Virus record (IMG/VR): IMGVR_UViG_3300046722_000274
Span: 1 to 37,998 of that record
DNA length: 37,998 nucleotides
Reading direction: 5' to 3' (one strand)
Source of the DNA: a virus
A program made the position numbers and the translations under genes. The notes beneath the pieces are model-generated. The model was not told the DNA's origin and did not search any database. It saw nothing but the letters and a program-made list of their open reading frames with translations. Positions 17,784 to 27,615 of this stretch are shown in pieces. How positions within the stretch are numbered: the stretch's first letter is position 1; every line of letters starts with the position of its first letter.

Positions 17784-18710
17784 TCAGCCCTGCGGCTGCT
17801 GGCCGGTCTGCGCCAGGATCGTGGCGTAGGCGGCCTGCTGCTCGGGCGTCAGCCCCGCCGGCGGGGCGGGCAGCCCGTTCGCCTGCTGGACCACGGGCTG
17901 CTGCGGCGCGGGCTGTGGATCGGTGGGCATCGTCATCTGCGGGGGCGTCCACGGCGGAGTGGTGACCTGCGGCCCGTACTGCATCTGCGGCAGCGGCTGC
18001 TGAACCGGGGGAGCCTGCGGGACCTGCATCTGCGGTAGCGGAGCAGCGGCCTGCTGCTCAGCGTGGACCTCGGGCGGGAGCTGCGACTCGCCCGAGTTGG
18101 CCGCGGCCGGCCGTTCGTACACGATGTCGATGTCCTTGCGCGGGTTGAACCCCGCGCCGGTCGGCACGTCCGCGGCGTACCGCAGCCGCATCCGGCAACC
18201 GGCCTCGGGCGGCCCCGCCGGCGCGCCAGCGTGCGCCATAGCGGCGGCCAGCTTCTCGCGGGTGGCGCCCTTCAGGTAGAACACCGAGGTGGTGCCGATG
18301 GCGTCCGGCACGTTGCTGTTGAGCACGTGCACCGGCACCAACATCTGAAACTTGGGCCGGCCGTCCTTGAAGTACTGGGGGATGTTGCGGGTGTCAGTCT
18401 GCTGCTGCACGTCGGCCTTGGTGATCGGCCGGGTGACCTCCACGTAGTACTCGGTGCCGAGCTGCGCGAACTTCAGCGCCTGCCCGCCGCCCACGGTGGG
18501 CTGGTCGAAGAAGTCGTCCAGGGTGCCCTGCGCGAGCGGGGCCTGCGGCTGTGCCGGCGGGGGGATCTGGCCGTACTGCTGCGGGGGGTAGCCGGGCTGC
18601 ACGGGCAGCGGCTGCATGAGCTGCTGCGGAGCGCCGAACTGCGGGTTGATCGGGTAGCCCTGCTGCGGCTGCACAGGAGCCCCGAACTGGGGGTTGTACG
18701 GCTGAGTCAT
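17784..18710 (-). CDS. ssDNA-binding-like phage protein with Pro/Gln-rich flanks
   Basis: A 308-residue protein. Both ends are low-complexity Pro/Gln-rich (about 1-58 and 220-308); the core (about 60-215) begins GTLDDFFDQPTVGGGQALKF and includes DGRPKFQMLVPV and YLKGATREKLAAAMAHAG. I recall this core in many actinophages, sometimes annotated as a single-stranded DNA-binding protein; here that is memory plus context (helicase, exonuclease and resolvase neighbours). The ATG at 18710 lacks a strong ribosome site; an upstream open frame is unlikely. Disordered tails could recruit partners, as the tip of SSB does. Confidence 0.7.
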   Translation of the reverse strand: MTQPYNPQFGAPVQPQQGYPINPQFGAPQQLMQPLPVQPGYPPQQYGQIPPPAQPQAPLAQGTLDDFFDQPTVGGGQALKFAQLGTEYYVEVTRPITKADVQQQTDTRNIPQYFKDGRPKFQMLVPVHVLNSNVPDAIGTTSVFYLKGATREKLAAAMAHAGAPAGPPEAGCRMRLRYAADVPTGAGFNPRKDIDIVYERPAAANSGESQLPPEVHAEQQAAAPLPQMQVPQAPPVQQPLPQMQYGPQVTTPPWTPPQMTMPTDPQPAPQQPVVQQANGLPAPPAGLTPEQQAAYATILAQTGQQPQG

Positions 18711-18743
18711 GATCGCGATTCTCGATTCTGCTGGTGAGTTGGT

Positions 18744-18780
18744 GCCCGCCCCTGCGACATGCACTTGAAGAGGGGCGGGC
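18744..18780 (-). promoter_or_regulatory. Hairpin in the 5' leader of the SSB-like gene
   Basis: GCCCGCCCCT (18744-18753) pairs perfectly over 10 bp with 18771-18780 around a 17-base loop. It lies within a leader of about 200 bases between the predicted promoter (-10 at 18923-18928) and the ATG at 18710, with no gene in it. It could be an attenuator, a processing site or a protein-binding element; no T tract follows. Confidence 0.45.
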
Positions 18781-18922
18781 AGAAGGCAGCCAGCCCGGCC
18801 AGACTGTAGGGCCCGGGTCGAGACTCGCACTCGCATCGGTCGCCTCGTGCGCCGGGGCTGTCGCCCTGCTCGGCTGGCTTCTCTGCGGGTGGTCCTGCCG
18901 GTCAGACCGGCTGCCACTGCTC

Positions 18923-18951
18923 AATCTACACGCTTTGCGACGTATTGCAAC
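18923..18951 (-). promoter_or_regulatory. Promoter with overlapping operator before the SSB-like gene
   Basis: On the - strand TTGCAA, 16 bases, TAGATT (TAGATT at 18928-18923) forms a plausible -35/-10 pair. The -35 box lies inside an operator copy at 18934-18951 (TTTGC-GACGTATT-GCAAC, 16 of 18 matches to the strong site), so binding there would block RNA polymerase. Confidence 0.6.
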
Positions 18952-18953
18952 TA

Positions 18954-19124
18954 CTACTTCCGGCGCCCCGGTCGGCGCACGCCCTGCGGGCCCATGTTGA
19001 TGCCGTCCTTCTTGCGAGTGGTCTTGGTGACGATCGGGTCGCAGTAGGCACACCCCGTGTGCAAGCACCGGCCCACGTCGTCGGACGGGTGGCCGTTGGG
19101 GCAGAACCTGACTTCGTGGGACAT
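18954..19124 (-). CDS. Small zinc-binding-type protein, 56 residues
   Basis: MSHEVRFCPNGHPSDDVGRC... has four cysteines and two histidines in its first 30 residues (CPNGH, CLHTGCAYC), then a basic tail (TRKKDGINMGPQGVRRPGRRK), consistent with a small zinc-binding nucleic-acid protein. Its ATG overlaps the homing endonuclease stop by one base (TGATG). Before the endonuclease arrived, this junction would have followed the exonuclease directly. Confidence 0.68.
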   Translation of the reverse strand: MSHEVRFCPNGHPSDDVGRCLHTGCAYCDPIVTKTTRKKDGINMGPQGVRRPGRRK

Positions 19125-19651
19125 CACATCACCGTTCCCGGGCAGCCGCTGCCGCCGTCCTTGGCGCTCTGCGGCTCGTTCAGCACCGCGTGCTCTCCCC
19201 ACGCTTCGGTAGCGGCGGCGTTGTACGCCTGCGCAGCATCCCACGCGGTACTGAACGAGCCAAGATGACGCTTCCGGTATCTGACTTTGATCTCCGCCAC
19301 ATACCGGCCGTCTTTGGCGCGCAGATGCACGCCCCGATAACCTGTCTTGGTCTGCTTGAGCACACGTTTGTTTCCGATGTTCGTCGACTGGTCGGTGAGA
19401 ACCAGGTTCGATCGGCAATTGTTCAAGCCGTTGCGGTCTCGGTGGTGCACCACTTGTCCAGCCCCTGCGCCCATCAGCCACCGATGCAGGTACAGGTTCT
19501 GCGTGCCGACGCGCGCCGCCACATACGTCGTATGCATTCGTGGCAACGCACGGAATCGATATTTTGTCAATAGAACAGCATCGGCGGCGTCCACTGTGGT
19601 GATTTGGCCACTCGGCAATCGATGCTCAATCACGCCACCGTACCCGGGCAT
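19124..19651 (-). CDS. HNH-AP2 homing endonuclease fused to a vestigial exonuclease tail
   Basis: A 175-residue protein: HNH domain at about 55-90 (HRWLMGAG, VVHHRDRNGLNNCRSNL), an AP2/ERF-type DNA-binding domain at about 103-158 (TGYRGVHLRAKDGRYVAE...), and a last stretch QSAKDGGSGCPGTVM (161-175) that belongs to neither. That stretch matches the C-terminus of the exonuclease encoded just upstream (QSAKDGGTGCPGTVA). The ATG at 19651 lies within the exonuclease gene's 3' end, overlapping it by 22 bases. HNH-AP2 proteins are free-standing homing endonucleases; here the gene sits in the 3' end of a conserved gene, as expected. Confidence 0.9.
   Translation of the reverse strand: MPGYGGVIEHRLPSGQITTVDAADAVLLTKYRFRALPRMHTTYVAARVGTQNLYLHRWLMGAGAGQVVHHRDRNGLNNCRSNLVLTDQSTNIGNKRVLKQTKTGYRGVHLRAKDGRYVAEIKVRYRKRHLGSFSTAWDAAQAYNAAATEAWGEHAVLNEPQSAKDGGSGCPGTVM
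19130..19174. repeat. 45-bp direct repeat, copy 1 (end of the homing endonuclease gene)
   Basis: Matches 19636-19680 at 39 of 45 positions with no gap. It encodes the vestigial tail of the homing endonuclease and probably is the ancestral 3' end of the exonuclease gene. Confidence 0.9.
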
Positions 19652-19680
19652 CCAGTCCCCCCGTCCTTGGCGCTCTGCGG
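19175..19680 (-). mobile_element. Inferred homing insertion (about 506 bp)
   Basis: The 506-bp period between the two 45-bp repeats contains the endonuclease gene plus a replacement copy of the exonuclease 3' end. Removing it would rejoin the exonuclease frame in phase to the old tail and restore its stop overlapping the next gene (TGATG at 19126-19122). The exact borders are inferred from the repeats. Confidence 0.75.
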
Positions 19681-20439
19681 CCGGTAGAAGGGACAATGAT
19701 AGCACTCGTCCGAGCTCGGCGACCGCGGCACGTCGTCGATGTGCAGGCCGCCGGCCCGCACCGCGGCGGCGTAGCCCTTGCGCCGGTCGGTCTCAGCGAA
19801 GGTGTCGGCCAGTTCCACATAGGCATCACCGTCGAACGGCATCTCCCACACGTACAGGCCGTCCAGCGAGCTGCCGGTGCGCGGGTAGGCGATGATCCCC
19901 ACCCGCTCCACCGGCAGGCCCAGCCGGATGAAACCGAGGCCATAGAGCAGCAGCTGCCGCCGGTACTTGCGCGGCGGGCGACCGGACCTCACCTTGTTCA
20001 GGCTCGACTCGCCGAGGCACTTGTGGTCCAGCACGGCGCGCTCGTGCGCGTCGTACAGGTCGCCGGTGCCGCCGTGCTCCGGATGCGGGACCACGTGGCG
20101 CTCGGCGAACCACCGCTGCTGGTCAGTGAGCTGGTTGTCCGCCTCGAACGCGTCGGCCAGCCACGCGTGCACGGCGGTGCCGACCACCGAGGGCCACGGG
20201 TCGGACACGTGGTTGGTGCGCGCCTCGGCCAGCAGCTTCCCGACCACCTGGCGGTCGCACTCCACACCGAGCTCGCTTGGGCCGAGATGGACCTGTAGCG
20301 AGCGCGGCGCCCGATTGGACGCCCGGATGACCACGTCCTTGACGGTGCGCGCCATCCGGGTAGCCCACTCGGTGTTGCCGCTGACCGCGGCCATGGGCGC
20401 GCTGCCCATAAAGTCGGCGGGGCTCGGGGCCGCGGTCAC
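19630..20439 (-). CDS. Cas4/RecB-like exonuclease with 4Fe-4S cluster ligands
   Basis: A 269-residue PD-(D/E)XK nuclease. Visible: C61 (ELGVECDRQ), G87-x3-H91, GGTGDLYD (D127/D130), AVLDHK (D138, K140), QLLLYG (Q162, Y166), then C246, C249 and C264 (CYHCP...GCPG). One N-terminal and three C-terminal cysteines are the Cas4/AddB-type iron-sulfur set. Probable role: DNA end resection for recombination. The gene's last 15 codons, including C264, lie in the duplicated segment next to the homing endonuclease. GTG start overlaps the upstream stop (GTGA). Confidence 0.9.
   Translation of the reverse strand: MTAAPSPADFMGSAPMAAVSGNTEWATRMARTVKDVVIRASNRAPRSLQVHLGPSELGVECDRQVVGKLLAEARTNHVSDPWPSVVGTAVHAWLADAFEADNQLTDQQRWFAERHVVPHPEHGGTGDLYDAHERAVLDHKCLGESSLNKVRSGRPPRKYRRQLLLYGLGFIRLGLPVERVGIIAYPRTGSSLDGLYVWEMPFDGDAYVELADTFAETDRRKGYAAAVRAGGLHIDDVPRSPSSDECYHCPFYRPQSAKDGGTGCPGTVA
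19636..19680. repeat. 45-bp direct repeat, copy 2 (end of the exonuclease gene)
   Basis: The copy now used by the exonuclease; it encodes QSAKDGGTGCPGTV including Fe-S ligand C264. Mismatches to copy 1 are concentrated in six positions. Confidence 0.9.
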
Positions 20440-20663
20440 CAGCGACGCTCATTCGCGTCCATGTGCCGGCACCCGTGCTCAGCGGTCAGCAGGCAGGGCC
20501 ACGGCGCCGTGGGGTGCACCGCGCCACACGCTCGCCGGTACATCGGCGAGACGGTATCCGTCGCCGTAGTGGTGACCGGTTGGGCTGAATCAGCGATCCG
20601 CTCCAGGGCAACCGCGATCCGGTCCAGCCGCTCGAACAGCCCGAAAATATCATCGCCGGTCAC
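20436..20663 (-). CDS. Small CCHH-module protein, 75 residues
   Basis: GTG at 20663 (GTGA overlap) gives a helical N-terminus (LFERLDRIAVALERIADSA) and one C-terminal CCHH module: C46, C57, H63, H67, then W75 (C-x10-C-x5-H-x3-H-x7-W). The same module recurs in the three genes upstream. The upstream open frame lies inside the next gene. Probable zinc-binding protein, function unknown. Confidence 0.7.
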   Translation of the reverse strand: MTGDDIFGLFERLDRIAVALERIADSAQPVTTTATDTVSPMYRRACGAVHPTAPWPCLLTAEHGCRHMDANERRW

Positions 20664-20872
20664 CAGGACCCTCCCTCTGCGTCCATATGCGTACCGCGAT
20701 GCCCCTTGACTCGAATACACGGCAAAGAGTCCGTGTCGTCGTTGACGCCCGTTCCGCATTCCATCTGAACCAGCGCCAGCTCGGCCGCTTCAGCGCGATC
20801 TCGCCACGCATCCACAGCGTCCGCGATTCGCTGAATAGCGTCGCCGACCTCGAAAACGTTATCGCTGGTCAC
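20660..20872 (-). CDS. Small CCHH-module protein, 70 residues
   Basis: A helical N-terminus (VFEVGDAIQRIADAVDAWRDRA...) and one CCHH module: C39, C52, H58, H62, then W70 (C-x12-C-x5-H-x3-H-x7-W). It is a paralogue of the next gene; both share the helix-plus-module layout. GTG start and stop both overlap neighbours by 4 bases. Confidence 0.7.
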   Translation of the reverse strand: MTSDNVFEVGDAIQRIADAVDAWRDRAEAAELALVQMECGTGVNDDTDSLPCIRVKGHRGTHMDAEGGSW

Positions 20873-22119
20873 CAGGATGCCCCTGTTCTATCCACGTGGC
20901 TGCCCGCGTGCCCCGCCTGGAGCGCGCACACGAGGTTGCGCCCGGGACCCGTCGCAGAGTAGCGGTTGAGGCAATTCTGCCCGGGACTTTCTAGCGCGTC
21001 GACACGCTTGGTCAGTTCGTCAACGCGTGAGGCCAGCGGCGTGGTTGCCGTGTACGGCAGGCTGAACGTGACGCCCTGTTCTCCCAATCGCCCGGACGGC
21101 TGCCCCATGCTCCACACTGAACCGGCAGACTTTTTCAGCTCGGCCACCCGCTGGATCAGGTTGTCCCACGTCTGGCCACTGATGTCGACACCGAGAGCGG
21201 CACCGAGCTTACGTAACCGGTCGGACGATTTCACATTCACCATGTTGAGCCGCTCGCACGTGTCGTCCAGCTCCCGCTGCGCCCTGATCCGGAACTGGCG
21301 TTCCCGATCGGTCAGCCGACCCACCTGCGCGCGCAGGTCCGCCCACGTGGCCGAGCCGGCGACAGGTGGCTCTCCGAAGTGGTGTCGGATGTCATTCACC
21401 AGGTTGGTGATCAGCTCGGCGCGGCGTTCTCGATCACTGTCGCGTTTTTGCTCCGCCCTGACTCGGAACTGGTGTTCCCGCTCAGTCAGCGACGCCTGCG
21501 CGTTGACGATGCGCACTTCTGCTTCCAGTCGCCCTACCAGTTCTTGATACTCGGGCTGATTGGTGGCGGCGGCCTTGCGCAGTTCCTCTAGCTTGTTGAT
21601 CTGGTTGGCTTGCGCCTTCACCTTGCGCTGAAGCCCGGTCAGCTGTTTTGCCACCGACTCCTCGGTCACGTCGGACCACACCACCTTCATGCCGGCGCGC
21701 GGGTGCTCGTGTATGCCGCTGTGGCCCACGGTCCGGGCACACGTCATGCCGTCGAACGGGCCGACGTTGCCGCACGGCCGCATGCCGGGGCCGCCGGTCT
21801 GCGGCGTGTGTTCGGCAGACGGCACCGCTGCCATGGCCGTCGAGTACGACCGACCGGTGCTGTTCTTGTGCTCCCCGTCGTGCCCGTCCGCCAGATGGTA
21901 CTTACCCGAATCAGAGGACTCAAGCAGGTACGGCACGCCGCACAGCTTCTCGGACGGCCACAGGATCGGGCCCTTGCCGAGCCAGTGAGAGCCGTCGCGA
22001 TCCTTGTGCTCCCCGTCGTGGCGAACGGCACGAGCGCAGGTGTGCGCAACCGTGCCGTTCGTCTCTTCCACGATTCGAATCACGCCGCACTTCTCTTCGC
22101 CGCTCACGTAGTCGGCCAT
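20869..22119 (-). CDS. Multi-module CCHH protein with central coiled coil, 416 residues
   Basis: Three N-terminal and one C-terminal copies of the module: (1) C11, C28, H34, H38; (2) C60, H80, H84, second Cys missing; (3) C116, C127, H133, H137; (4) C383, C398, H404, H408, W416. Between them (about 155-375) is a long Arg/Glu/Gln-rich helix with repeated LTEREHQFRVRAEQKRD-like segments, probably a coiled coil. A scaffold or nucleic-acid-binding role is conceivable; no catalytic motif is visible. ATG at 22119 lies 1 base after the upstream stop. Confidence 0.78.
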   Translation of the reverse strand: MADYVSGEEKCGVIRIVEETNGTVAHTCARAVRHDGEHKDRDGSHWLGKGPILWPSEKLCGVPYLLESSDSGKYHLADGHDGEHKNSTGRSYSTAMAAVPSAEHTPQTGGPGMRPCGNVGPFDGMTCARTVGHSGIHEHPRAGMKVVWSDVTEESVAKQLTGLQRKVKAQANQINKLEELRKAAATNQPEYQELVGRLEAEVRIVNAQASLTEREHQFRVRAEQKRDSDRERRAELITNLVNDIRHHFGEPPVAGSATWADLRAQVGRLTDRERQFRIRAQRELDDTCERLNMVNVKSSDRLRKLGAALGVDISGQTWDNLIQRVAELKKSAGSVWSMGQPSGRLGEQGVTFSLPYTATTPLASRVDELTKRVDALESPGQNCLNRYSATGPGRNLVCALQAGHAGSHVDRTGASW

Positions 22120-22726: not shown

Positions 22727-22771
22727 ACCCTACGCGCCCGTTGCGACGTTTTGCAACTGGGGTGTTAGGCT
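22727..22771. promoter_or_regulatory. Divergent promoters sharing one perfect operator
   Basis: The operator GTTGCGACGTTTTGCAAC is at 22740-22757. On the - strand TTGCAA (22756-22751), 18 bases, TAGGGT (22732-22727) drives the gene at 22720. On the + strand TTGCGA (22741-22746), 19 bases, TAGGCT (22766-22771) could drive the replisome gene. Both -35 boxes lie inside the operator, so one bound protein would silence both early operons. Confidence 0.68.
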
Positions 22772-22823
22772 CGGTCCCGACCCCGTTCACGCGGTGTAGT
22801 GTCCGAAGCCCCACAACAAAAGA

Positions 22824-22849
22824 CCCCGCCGAACCGAAGTTCGACGGGG
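22824..22849. promoter_or_regulatory. Hairpin in the leader of the replisome gene
   Basis: CCCCG (22824-22828) pairs with 22845-22849, and CGAAC (22830-22834) with GTTCG (22839-22843), closing a CGAA loop. On the - strand the stem is followed by TCTTTTGTTG, the layout of a terminator against leftward transcription. On the + strand it lies in the 5' leader about 85 bases before the ATG. The rest of 22773-22935 shows no gene. Confidence 0.5.
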
Positions 22850-22935
22850 CCCTGATCGCCTGGAGAGCGACGTCCCACCGCGCCATCGCGCCGCGCACAC
22901 AACGCGTGGAACAGAGAGAACGTGGAGAACATAGC

Positions 22936-25900
22936 ATGACCTCACAGCCTGAGCAGGATGTCCGCCAGGCCCTTGACATCGCCCGCCAGTTGGCGGCGAT
23001 GGGCGTGCCGATCTTCGCCGCGCCGCCAGACCCCTCCCGCCCGATCGGCTTCTCTCTCCCCCGCGGCTGGCAGTACGTGGTGGCCGAAGCGGCGGAGAAG
23101 CACATCGCCGAGTGGCGGCCCGGGTGGGCGCTGTGCGCCGTCATGGGCCACGGCCTGGACCTGGTCGACGTCGACACCCGGTCCGGCGGCAGCTGGCCCG
23201 AGTTCGTGCCCGTCACGGCGGCGCTCGGCATCGCGGCCACGCCGTCCGGCGGCCTGCACGGGTTCGTGCCGAGCCTGGGCCTGCGCTCGCGGGACGCCAT
23301 CCTGCCCGGCGTCGACTACAAGGGCGGCACGGGCGGGGACGGCCACGGCTTCGCGTTCATCGCGCCCACGGTGAAACCGAGCAAGGTGACCGGTCAGCCA
23401 GCGTCGTATGTGTGGATCACGCCGCCGCTCGGCGAAACCGGCGATCGTCGTGAGTTTGATGCCTTGCGGCCGCTCGCGGCCCACATCGAACTGCTCCAGG
23501 CGTCTAGCCCCGCGGCCAAGCAGGCAGCGCCTGGCGACGTGTTCGCCGAGTTCTACGGCCAACAGGAAGCGCAGTCCCGCCAGACCGCGGCGCGCGCCTG
23601 CGCCAAGGCCGTGGCCGACGCGTCCGAGCCCGCGGCGCCGGGACAGGGCTACCGGCTGCGCCTGATGAAAGCGGCCATGATCCTGGGCGGCTACGTGGGC
23701 GCCGGCGCGCTCTCGCCCGAGGTGGCCGAGCGGGAGCTGTACGGCGCCGTGGCCCGAGCCTGGAGCGCCGATCCGGACGCCGATGACCTGCTCTGGGTTC
23801 GGCAGGGGTTGGCCGACGGCGCGCAACGCCCGTTCCACGTATACGACGAACGCGCCGCCGATCCGCTGACCGGCCTGCCGCCGGCCGCGGCGGCGTCGCT
23901 GGAGCACGTCCGCCGGCACGGCGCGTTGCCCGAGATGTTCGACCCGTCCGACGCCGGCAGCAACGAGCAGCAGCTTGCGGAACGGGTGCTCGGCTTCCTG
24001 CACCCCAACCTGCGCATGGACAGCGAGTCCGGCGCGTGGCTGGTGCGCGGCTCGGACCGCTGGCACGTGATCAGCCGGGACGCCGCCACGTGGGCGATCG
24101 CCGAGGTGGCGCCGAGGATGCCCGTAGGCCTGCGGCCGGTGCCCAAGGACCCCAGCGAGCGGGAGCCCGAGCACTGGCAGGCGCACCGGCACGCTGTGTT
24201 CCACTCGGCCCGCGGGTCAAGCGGCATCGCCAACAAGATCCGCGCCGTGCTGGCCACGCAGGGGCACGCCAGCCACGTGCGGCTGTCCGAGCTGGACGCG
24301 CAGCCCGAGATTCTGTGGGCCGCCGGGCAGGCGTGGGACCTGCGCACCGGCCAGCTGGCCGACATCGACCCGCTCACGCCGCACACCCACGCCGCCCGGG
24401 TGGCGCCGGTGGAGGGGCCGACGCCGCTGTGGGACGCGTTCACCGAGGCGGTGTGGCCGGACGCCGAGATCAGGGAGTGGGCGCTGACCGTGCTGTCGGT
24501 GGGCCTGACCGGGCACAGCTCGCGCGTCATGCCCGTGCTGTACGGGGAGACCGGCCGCGGCAAGTCGCAGGTGGTGATGCTGATCTCCGACCTACTCGGC
24601 ACCTACGGCGGGCCGGCGGACCAGAAGCTGATCATCGCGCCCGAGGCGCACGGTTCGGTGGTCTACAGCCTGAAGGGCCTGCGGCTGGCGTTCATCGACG
24701 AACCGGCGCCCACCCACCGGGACAAGGTGGAGCGGGTCAAGCTGCTCACCGGCGGCGGCACGCTGACCGGGAACATGATGCGCAAGGACCCGGTCACCTG
24801 GCAGCCGACGCACACCCTGGTGCTGATGCAGAACGACGCGCCTGAGCTGATCGATGACGCCTTGCGCGATCGGGCCCGGGTGGTGCTGTGCGACGGCGAC
24901 CCCGATCGGGTGTCCCGCACGCGGGCGGCAATCGGCGGCGTCGACGGGCCGGCGTGGGCGCAGGAAGCGCCCGGGGTCATGGCGGCCATGGTGGCGCGGG
25001 CCGGGCGCGTGCTCGGCAACCCCGGCGTGCTGGCCCACTCGGCGACACCGGCCAGCATCGGCGAGGCGGTTGACGCCATGGTCCGGGAGCAGGATCCGAT
25101 CCGACAGTGGATGGAAGCGCGCACCTCCCCGGCGAACCCGGGCACCAAGGCGCGCGAGCTGCACGACGACTTCGCGCAGTGGTTCAAGATCAGTCCGGTG
25201 TTCGGCCGGCGGGGCGTTCCGTCCATGATCGAGTTCGGCCGGCGGCTGACCAAGATCGGCGTGGGGACTACGGAGCGTAGGGACGGGAAGTACCGGCACC
25301 TTCAGCTGAACGGGCCGGCCAATGGTTGGGTCATCCCACCTATGCCGGCGTCATCGGCTGGTTTTGAGCCACCGGTGGCGGATGTTACGGATGACGTGGC
25401 GGATGCCGAGAGGGGATCCGCCACGTCAAAGTCCCAGGTCGACCCATATGTTGATCATGATGTTACGGATGTTACGGATAGTCCCCAGTTCCTCTCTCAA
25501 CATCACAACTATATCGATACAGTAAACAATAGCGGTTATAAGGAGCAGGCCCCTCTATCCGTAACATCCGCCACCGATGTGGCCTTGACCTCGGTAAATG
25601 AGGGTGGCGGATCCGTAACACCCCCTGGGACGGCGCTGGCCGTGCCCGAACCGAGTGAGGTAGCCCCCAAGCGGTCACGCTCGGCTACCTCGGCCGCGGT
25701 GGCGAAGCGTGAGGCCAAGGCGCTGGCCAAGCAGCAGTTGATCATCGAGCTGGCCGGGCCGATCGTGGAGCTGCCGGCGCTGGTGCAGCGGACCGCTCCG
25801 ACGCCCCGGCACGTCGGCCACGTGCACGTCGGCCCGAGGCTGGACGACCTGGTGGCCAAGGCGCGCGGCTGCCTGACCGTGGACGTGGAGAACTCGGGCT

Positions 25901-27615
25901 TCCCGATCGGGCATCCCGACCACGCGCTGTGCACCGTGCAGCTCGGCACCCCCGTGGCCGCCTTCGACCTGGACGCGAGCTGTGGGGAGTGCCGGAAGAT
26001 CGTGCGCCGGCAGGTGGCCAAGGCCCCGACCCTGCACGCGCACAACGCCGCGGCCGACCTGTCCGAGCTGGCCCACGCGGGGCTCGGCGACCTGGCTGAG
26101 ATGTGGTCCCGGATGGACGACACCGTGATCCGGGCCAAGCTGGCGGACCCGACGTCCACCGGCGGCGCCCCGGGCCTCAAGGACGCCGCGGCCGCGGTGC
26201 TCGGCGACCAGGCTATGAGTCCCGCGGCCGATGACGCGCGTGAGGCGCTGTTCAAGGCGGCCGGCTGGCTGACCAACGTGGACCCGACCGACCCGGCCGA
26301 GAAGTCGGGGTGGCTACAGGTGAACCCGCGCTGTTCCACGATGATCAGCTACGCCTGCGCCGACGTGCTGGACGGCGCGCTGCTGGCGCTGGACCTTCCC
26401 GAGCCTGAGCCCGAGGTGCACGCCCGGGAGCGCGCCGTCCAGACGATCGTGTCCCGACCGGCAGCGCTCGGCTTCCCGCTTGACCGTGCTGCGGTGCTGG
26501 AGCAGAACGAGTTGCACGAGAACGCCGTGGACACGCTGCTGCGCCGGGTGCGGGCCGAGCTCGGCATCGACAACCCGGGCAGCCCCAAGCAGGTGTCCAC
26601 CAAGCTGCTGGCTTTGGGCGCTCAGTTGGGCCAGACGAAGACGAGAGGGGTGTCCGCGGCCAAGGACGTGCTTCAGGCCATTGCGGGTGCGTGGGAGCTG
26701 CCTGACGGCTCGGAAGACGTCACCGCGCTGGAGCCGCACAACCTCGCGCAGCACGCGGCGCGGATGATCCTGGACTGGCGCAAGCACGACACCGTGCTGA
26801 AGCTGATATTGCGACCGTGGAAGATCGCCACCACCCACGGCGATGGCCGGATCCGGCCCACGGTCTACACGCTGGGCGCCGACACCGGCCGCATGAGCTG
26901 CGTCCGGCCCAACATGCAGCAGGTCAGCAAGAAAGGCGGCGTCCGGGAGTGCATCGCCGCGGACGACGGCATGTCGATCGTCTCGGCCGACTTCGCCGGG
27001 GTGGAACTGCGGGTGGCCGCGGCGCTGTCCGGTGACCGGATGCTGCGCCACGCCATCGACAACGGCCTGGACATCCACCGCATGATCGCCGCGCAGGTGT
27101 TCGGGGAGGACTACGCCGACGCCAACCGCACCCTGGCCAAGCGCATCGTGTTCGGCCGGATCTATGGCGGAGGCATCCCCACCCTGGCCAAGCAGGCCGG
27201 CGTCAGCCAGGCCATCGCCGCCGCGGCCGTGGAAGTCATGGACTCGATCACGCCGGACCTGGCGATCTGGTCCGAGCAGATTCGCTCGGGCATCCGCGCC
27301 GGTCATCGGCAGTTCCGCACCTACTCCGGGCGCGTCATCCACCTGGACCCGAAGTTGCCGCACAAGGGCCCGAACTACCTGATCCAGGGCAGCGCTCGCG
27401 AGCTGTTGGTGGACGCGCTGCTGCGCTGGGAACGCGGGCCGTGGGGCGGCGGACTGGTGATGCCGGTGCACGACGAAGTGGTGGCCATGGTGCCCGAGCA
27501 GCAGGCTGATGACGCGCTGGCCCACCTGCTGGAGTGCATGACGTTGGAGCTCAACAGCATCCCCATCGCCGCCGAGGCGGGAGGCCCGCCGGCACGCACC
27601 TGGCACAGCGGCTGA
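22936..27615 (+). CDS. Fused PrimPol primase - helicase - family A DNA polymerase
   Basis: A 1559-residue single-chain replisome. (1) AEP/PrimPol domain, about 1-200: VDVD (D78, D80), SGGLH (H108), VDYKGG (D127). (2) D5_N-like region and P4/D5 SF3-type helicase, about 340-780: Walker A GETGRGKS (537-544), Walker B FIDEP (586-590). (3) Low-complexity linker, about 810-920. (4) Degenerate DEDD exonuclease-like region, about 960-1090: VDVEN (D983, E985), HNAAADL (D1041), MDDT. (5) Pol A: motif A SADFAGVELR (D1352), motif B from R1398 with K1402, F1406 and YG at 1410-1411, motif C VHDE (1511-1514). ATG at 22936 has GGAG upstream; the open frame before it contains the promoter. No other polymerase is present. 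Confidence 0.92.
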   Translation: MTSQPEQDVRQALDIARQLAAMGVPIFAAPPDPSRPIGFSLPRGWQYVVAEAAEKHIAEWRPGWALCAVMGHGLDLVDVDTRSGGSWPEFVPVTAALGIAATPSGGLHGFVPSLGLRSRDAILPGVDYKGGTGGDGHGFAFIAPTVKPSKVTGQPASYVWITPPLGETGDRREFDALRPLAAHIELLQASSPAAKQAAPGDVFAEFYGQQEAQSRQTAARACAKAVADASEPAAPGQGYRLRLMKAAMILGGYVGAGALSPEVAERELYGAVARAWSADPDADDLLWVRQGLADGAQRPFHVYDERAADPLTGLPPAAAASLEHVRRHGALPEMFDPSDAGSNEQQLAERVLGFLHPNLRMDSESGAWLVRGSDRWHVISRDAATWAIAEVAPRMPVGLRPVPKDPSEREPEHWQAHRHAVFHSARGSSGIANKIRAVLATQGHASHVRLSELDAQPEILWAAGQAWDLRTGQLADIDPLTPHTHAARVAPVEGPTPLWDAFTEAVWPDAEIREWALTVLSVGLTGHSSRVMPVLYGETGRGKSQVVMLISDLLGTYGGPADQKLIIAPEAHGSVVYSLKGLRLAFIDEPAPTHRDKVERVKLLTGGGTLTGNMMRKDPVTWQPTHTLVLMQNDAPELIDDALRDRARVVLCDGDPDRVSRTRAAIGGVDGPAWAQEAPGVMAAMVARAGRVLGNPGVLAHSATPASIGEAVDAMVREQDPIRQWMEARTSPANPGTKARELHDDFAQWFKISPVFGRRGVPSMIEFGRRLTKIGVGTTERRDGKYRHLQLNGPANGWVIPPMPASSAGFEPPVADVTDDVADAERGSATSKSQVDPYVDHDVTDVTDSPQFLSQHHNYIDTVNNSGYKEQAPLSVTSATDVALTSVNEGGGSVTPPGTALAVPEPSEVAPKRSRSATSAAVAKREAKALAKQQLIIELAGPIVELPALVQRTAPTPRHVGHVHVGPRLDDLVAKARGCLTVDVENSGFPIGHPDHALCTVQLGTPVAAFDLDASCGECRKIVRRQVAKAPTLHAHNAAADLSELAHAGLGDLAEMWSRMDDTVIRAKLADPTSTGGAPGLKDAAAAVLGDQAMSPAADDAREALFKAAGWLTNVDPTDPAEKSGWLQVNPRCSTMISYACADVLDGALLALDLPEPEPEVHARERAVQTIVSRPAALGFPLDRAAVLEQNELHENAVDTLLRRVRAELGIDNPGSPKQVSTKLLALGAQLGQTKTRGVSAAKDVLQAIAGAWELPDGSEDVTALEPHNLAQHAARMILDWRKHDTVLKLILRPWKIATTHGDGRIRPTVYTLGADTGRMSCVRPNMQQVSKKGGVRECIAADDGMSIVSADFAGVELRVAAALSGDRMLRHAIDNGLDIHRMIAAQVFGEDYADANRTLAKRIVFGRIYGGGIPTLAKQAGVSQAIAAAAVEVMDSITPDLAIWSEQIRSGIRAGHRQFRTYSGRVIHLDPKLPHKGPNYLIQGSARELLVDALLRWERGPWGGGLVMPVHDEVVAMVPEQQADDALAHLLECMTLELNSIPIAAEAGGPPARTWHSG
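25373..25619. repeat. AT-rich iteron-like repeat cluster inside the replisome gene; origin candidate
   Basis: GTTACGGAT occurs at 25384-25392, 25462-25470 and 25471-25479, and inverted (ATCCGTAAC) at 25557-25565 and 25611-25619. Two 20-bp arms, 25373-25392 and 25557-25576, are perfect inverted copies about 164 bases apart. GACGTGGCGGAT (25393-25404) and its complement (25416-25427) form a local hairpin. Between the arms lies an unusually AT-rich stretch (about 25500-25550). It encodes only the flexible linker between helicase and polymerase. Confidence 0.7.

Follow-up and report, generated by a model that had tools for sequence, protein, structure and literature searches.

Introduction

Selfish DNA that enters a coding sequence normally needs an intron or an intein to stay harmless, and in phages a third solution may be to replace the piece that was broken. 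Mobile ORFs with C-terminal duplications are known from fungal mitochondria, namely in atp6 of Allomyces macrogynus and in atp6, atp9, cox2 and nad3 of Glomus (PMC3630166). In these genes the endonuclease lies between two versions of the target 3' end, of which the inserted one is used and the native one is left downstream, and in Glomus atp6 the reading frames run through (PMC3630166). Mitochondrial introns of Tremella fuciformis carry N-terminal duplications of host genes; here, too, a mobile element swaps part of a host gene for a foreign copy that it carries (PMC7315562). The Seg and Mob endonucleases of phage T4 are free-standing homing genes beside conserved phage genes, yet they stand between genes or split a gene in two, and the word stem "duplicat" is absent from the review that describes them (PMC2988022). 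In the actinophage ShiLan, a non-spliced HNH insertion lies out of frame in a methylase gene, with its start in another frame, and the first 11 in-frame residues of the insertion resemble those that follow the insertion site (PMC11855218). Replacement of a gene end in a phage was not found in the literature searched, which had subscription papers and preprints outside its scope.

Here we analyze a window of 37,998 nucleotides, the whole of the virus record IMGVR_UViG_3300046722_000274 (68% GC), in which an HNH-AP2 element has in all likelihood invaded the 3' end of an exonuclease gene and carried a replacement for that end. This element works like a fungal mitochondrial mobile ORF but is not a member of that group: the fungal ORFs encode LAGLIDADG or GIY-YIG enzymes in mitochondria, whereas the enzyme here is of the HNH-AP2 type in a phage, with a start codon inside the replacement tail and a stop codon taken from the native one. 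The Tremella elements are predicted introns with a partial host-gene copy, whereas the phage elements found at gene heads (L081, L110, L274 and L279) appear to have no need of splicing, the gene restarting from its own start codon. The ShiLan element is a near-precedent; it differs in that its insertion is wholly read through in the methylase and the native C-terminus is kept: no gene end is replaced, and the endonuclease carries no displaced end.

The target exonuclease

The gene at positions 20439-19630 on the minus strand starts with GTG and encodes a 269-aa protein matching phrog_1674 (exonuclease, E=4e-55), with relatives at 49-84% identity. Foldseek searches with its AlphaFold model (pLDDT 88) returned LHK-Exo and lambda exonuclease, with weaker resemblance to AdnAB, Cas4 and Exo5. 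The protein has a PD-(D/E)XK fold and four conserved cysteines, one N-terminal and three C-terminal; in an alignment of 35 relatives, C61, C249 and C264 never vary and C246 is retained in 32. We take this cysteine pattern to be that of Cas4/AdnB-type Fe-S nucleases, so the tail is very probably needed for function, with C264 (codon at 19650-19648) probably the fourth cysteine of a putative Fe-S site.

In other members of this exonuclease family, inteins with a LAGLIDADG domain interrupt the protein at its third cysteine, C249 (L042, 1995-3746; L048, 3001-4809; L082, 3001-4662), and in L042, L048/L049 and L082 this cysteine serves as the +1 residue. Since head- and tail-replacing endonucleases occur in the same family, the exonuclease gene is a shared hot spot that all three kinds of element exploit, two of them within a few codons. 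Among the family members found in bacterial genomes, none had an endonuclease at the tail.

Two tails and a nested endonuclease gene

The first-pass annotation had reported a 45-bp direct repeat (39/45) at the ends of the exonuclease gene and of the gene following it. The repeat was confirmed, although it is longer than reported: 53 bp with 45/53 identical positions, located on the minus strand at 19629-19681 (copy 1) and 19123-19175 (copy 2), 506 bp from start to start. This is far above chance; when 18954-20439 was shuffled 200 times, no 53-mer self-match exceeded 33/53. Copy 1 encodes the end of the exonuclease, QSAKDGGTGCPGTVA, and copy 2 the C-terminus of the second protein, QSAKDGGSGCPGTVM, each followed by a stop codon, and the two are identical across their first 21 bp. 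It is copy 1, which includes the C264 codon, that leaves the exonuclease intact.

The second gene (19651-19124, minus strand, 175 aa) overlaps the first and encodes an HNH-AP2 protein. It matches phrog_99 (HNH endonuclease) with E=2e-28 and the Pfam families AP2 (E=2e-4) and HNH_3 (E=0.0045), the last two below the Pfam curated cut-offs, and its catalytic-type residues H56, H70, N78 and N82 are conserved. The best reading of this gene is a free-standing HNH-AP2 homing endonuclease, which would cleave and home. A single-sequence query with the HNH protein gave no match in viral contigs, so alignments were used for the HNH scans. The protein's own body extends to about LNE, and the last 16 codons are the orphaned tail of copy 2, fused in frame. 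Residues 161-175, which belong to this tail, are predicted to be disordered (pLDDT below 50), as expected for baggage. A 19/20 inverted repeat is also present within the endonuclease gene (19173-19192 and 19242-19261), one arm of which ends at the junction with copy 2; it was reached by 6 of 400 codon shuffles and was dropped as evidence.

Both proteins have their own start and stop codons. The endonuclease ATG (19651-19649) is nested in the exonuclease tail, as the first-pass annotation had stated; it lies in another frame and has two bases in common with the C264 codon. The endonuclease stop (19126-19124) overlaps the ATG of a 56-aa gene at 19124-18954 in the sequence TGATG. Copy 1 differs from copy 2 in having GGG GGG for GGC GGC and GGA for GGC; these changes leave the exonuclease residues as they are and yield a Shine-Dalgarno-like GGGGGG run (19657-19662) together with the endonuclease ATG. 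Copy 1 is predicted to pair with the 16S 3' end at -11.7 kcal/mol and copy 2 at -8.0, and the strongest value among 70 distinct tails of relatives is -11.5. The start codon by itself is not special, since a GGA-TGC that yields ATG occurs in 18 of these 70 tails.

The empty site in related phages

A relative without the endonuclease was expected to have an exonuclease running directly into the 18954-19124 gene, and such an arrangement was found in a sister phage, L015. Over the 20 kb that were compared, the L015 record is colinear with the window and 71-86% identical to it in DNA. The L015 exonuclease, 84% identical to that of the window, has a single tail, QSGHDGGPGCPGTVA, and passes through TGATG into MADLSQCPNGHASMGDGQC..., a homologue of the 56-aa protein (53% identity over 38 aa). 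The scan for this small gene found no relative other than the one beside the L015 empty site. A second phage (L002), with an exonuclease 78% identical, likewise has a single tail and the TGATG junction, and neither the L015 nor the L002 record contains an HNH-AP2 gene. No DNA relative of the window locus was found among 50,697 phage records, a 20-mer common to both tails had no match in viral contigs, and a second phage with exactly this insertion was not found.

Which of the two tails is foreign

Only 1 of the 16 codons in copy 2 ends in A or T, which resembles the exonuclease gene body (17/246). Codons 247-269 of the exonuclease hold 6 such codons in 23, that is, 6 of the 23 in the whole gene (hypergeometric p=0.008), and codons 247 to the stop are nearer to the value of the endonuclease (49/159). 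This signal is modest, with p=0.11 over the 16-codon repeat alone. Because copy 2 is body-like and codons 247 to the stop are endonuclease-like, the tail in use is probably the foreign one, with the modest strength that composition allows at this locus. The probable foreign tract would cover codons 247-269 and the stop codon (19701-19630, from TAT CAT TGT at codons 247-249 to GCG; the left boundary is approximate). The interruption of the native gene then probably fell around codons 247-254, after the third ligand and before the fourth. The earlier proposal that the element landed in the codons for C264 holds for the new start codon, which does lie there, but not for the cut in the native gene, which was probably upstream.

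Proposed mechanism

We propose that a free-standing HNH-AP2 homing gene entered the 3' end of the phage exonuclease gene as a unit made of a replacement tail and the endonuclease. Read in the exonuclease frame, the first part of this unit would complete the exonuclease, including its fourth Fe-S cysteine and stop codon, and the same bases in another frame would provide the ribosome-binding run and ATG of the endonuclease. The displaced native tail would form the end of the endonuclease, which would thereby gain a stop codon and take over the former TGATG junction with the next gene. From this arrangement we infer that the empty site is cleaved, that the element spreads by break repair and that the rebuilt exonuclease functions: the endonuclease would cut a conserved stretch of the endonuclease-free gene, repair of the break would copy in the element with the adjoining gene end, and the gene would work on with its imported end. 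Since copy 1 completes the exonuclease and the native tail supplies the stop codon and TGATG, the element should be nearly neutral without splicing.

The view of the first-pass annotation that a replacement tail keeps the exonuclease whole, with the old tail remaining fused to the endonuclease, is supported by the two tails, the empty site of the sister phage and the split in composition between old and new ends, all of which can be read from the DNA itself, as can the mirror-image and independent cases. In those cases the displaced end would have become the start of the endonuclease (fused head cases) or a stump (L110 and L142), where in the window it became the stop.

Probable end replacement in other phages

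A search for similar endonucleases at other exonuclease loci, suggested in the earlier analysis, was productive: L053 has a related gene directly after the exonuclease stop, and L081 has one within the 5' end of this exonuclease gene. The L081 enzyme is 46% identical to that of the window in the alignment. In L081 the endonuclease is preceded, in frame, by the former exonuclease head, MTAMIDPAAFMAAAPAPLNGSSPWAS, to which it is fused, and a second head, VTVSPADFMASAPAPLNGNSPWSS, opens the exonuclease anew; as judged from sequence, this is the mirror image of the window case. Identity of the two L081 heads to outside relatives did not separate native from new.

Three further viral scans together with the earlier loci gave 162 distinct HNH-AP2 genes, among which six clear end-duplication cases and one probable case were found, or about 4%, a rough share given that the survey queries included some of the cases. 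On their own, bare DNA scores for flanking repeats carry little weight (a score of 17 is reached by 9 of 1042 control placements, some of them collagen-like repeats), so cases were accepted only if the repeat was the end of a gene. Tail cases are the window and L142, an unassigned gene with a match of 33/36 nt that occurs nowhere else in the locus. Head cases are L081; L110 (2740-3530), in which the interruption of an unassigned gene lies immediately ahead of GANCGPCA, a motif reminiscent of a cysteine-peptidase active site; L274, whose gene is exonuclease VIII-like (phrog_412, E=1e-78); L279, a SNF2-type helicase at the same locus as L073; and, probably, L141 (phrog_503). Other candidates were rejected: L166 is probably due to chance, several high protein scores were GC-rich low-complexity artefacts, and L272 (about 1805-2560) is actually two tandem HNH-AP2 genes. 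The N-termini of these tandem genes are nearly identical.

The new head of L110 is strongly AT-rich at third positions (16/22) in a GC-rich gene. New heads differ in composition from the gene body in L110 (p=2e-6), L274 (p=6e-10) and L081 (p=4e-4), and not significantly in L279 and L141. When the window and five head cases were pooled (L141 included, L142 left out), third-position AT amounted to 49/136 (36%) in the ends that serve intact genes and 306/1002 (31%) in the endonucleases, and to 11/123 (9%) in the orphan ends and 130/1521 (9%) in the gene bodies, with p=1.2e-7 for new versus old ends. This split in the pooled cases indicates that replacement ends, as a class, travel with the endonuclease.

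We consider it likely that phages harbour a recurrent class of end-replacing homing genes that has so far gone undescribed. Its members would be HNH-AP2 genes carrying an extra head or tail for the conserved gene that they cut, and would thereby avoid splicing, borrow start or stop signals of the host gene and swap ends of phage enzymes between lineages.

Origin of the element

A replacement end is one outcome and not a rule for this endonuclease family, since insertion beside the gene without duplication is seen both in L053 and in Gordonia phage Faith5x5 (L323), where an HNH endonuclease follows an exonuclease by ATGA (gp45-gp46); we read this exonuclease as YqaJ-like and different from that of the window. 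Such plain downstream arrangements fit a one-sided repair accident, a serious though somewhat doubtful alternative in which the donor endonuclease stood after the exonuclease stop, as in L053, homology on the left lay in the donor tail and the right join was illegitimate, so that the tail of the donor was brought in and that of the recipient remained. This would yield the same final anatomy, and the apparent foreign tract at codons 247-269 extends to the left of the repeat, as in co-conversion. By itself, however, such an accident leaves the endonuclease start inside the tail unexplained, nor does it account for the recurrence of duplicated ends at both gene termini. It is a rival on the origin and not on what is there, and elements of this kind may well arise in such a way.

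An unlikely origin is local duplication, in which the exonuclease tail was first doubled in this phage and the endonuclease was inserted between the copies later. Besides being identical over the first 21 bp, the copies are nearer to each other (45/53) than either is to the L015 tail (41/53 each), as a local duplication would have it. This closeness is also compatible with a carried replacement tail, which would then have come from a near relative or have been homogenised later over its first 21 bp. None of about 90 exonuclease loci had a duplicated tail without an endonuclease, and the clear difference in composition between the two ends of the head cases L110 and L274 argues that these are not local copies.

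A metagenome assembly artefact that fused two strains is very improbable: the window is a virus record with no isolate known to us, but 8 of 53 positions differ between the copies, each copy is in frame, the neighbours are intact and unrelated contigs share the same architecture. Least credible is a mobile intron or intein, for although inteins occur at the same motif in other family members (L042, L048, L082), a cmscan of 18700-20600 gave no Rfam match at E up to 1 and hence no group I/II ribozyme core, a stop codon closes the exonuclease before the body of the insert, P0002 has no intein match, the insert is fully taken up by tail and endonuclease with a start and stop for each protein, and copy 1 completes the exonuclease so that splicing is not needed.

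Implications and further observations

Replacement of the broken piece would explain how free-standing homing genes can target conserved catalytic codons, and it offers a concrete route by which phage enzymes could gain foreign N- or C-termini. It also calls for caution in annotation, as a "fusion" end on a phage endonuclease can be a piece orphaned from a neighbouring gene. The idea is open to direct testing, since both empty and filled alleles occur among sister phages. At the Faith5x5 site, no endonuclease is listed in more than 20 records of related Gordonia phages with exonucleases 82-85% identical, and Faith5x5 and its relatives could provide a laboratory system for empty and filled alleles.

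Two further features were noted elsewhere in the window. At 20436-22119 on the minus strand, three adjacent genes have a similar terminal motif (C...GH.G.H.D..G..W), which is apparently repeated within a 416-aa gene that has no Pfam match. On the plus strand, a single ORF of 1624 aa (22741-27615) combines a helicase region of the D5 type with a DNA polymerase of family A (Pfam D5_N, DUF5906 and DNA_pol_A) and could be a replication fusion protein.
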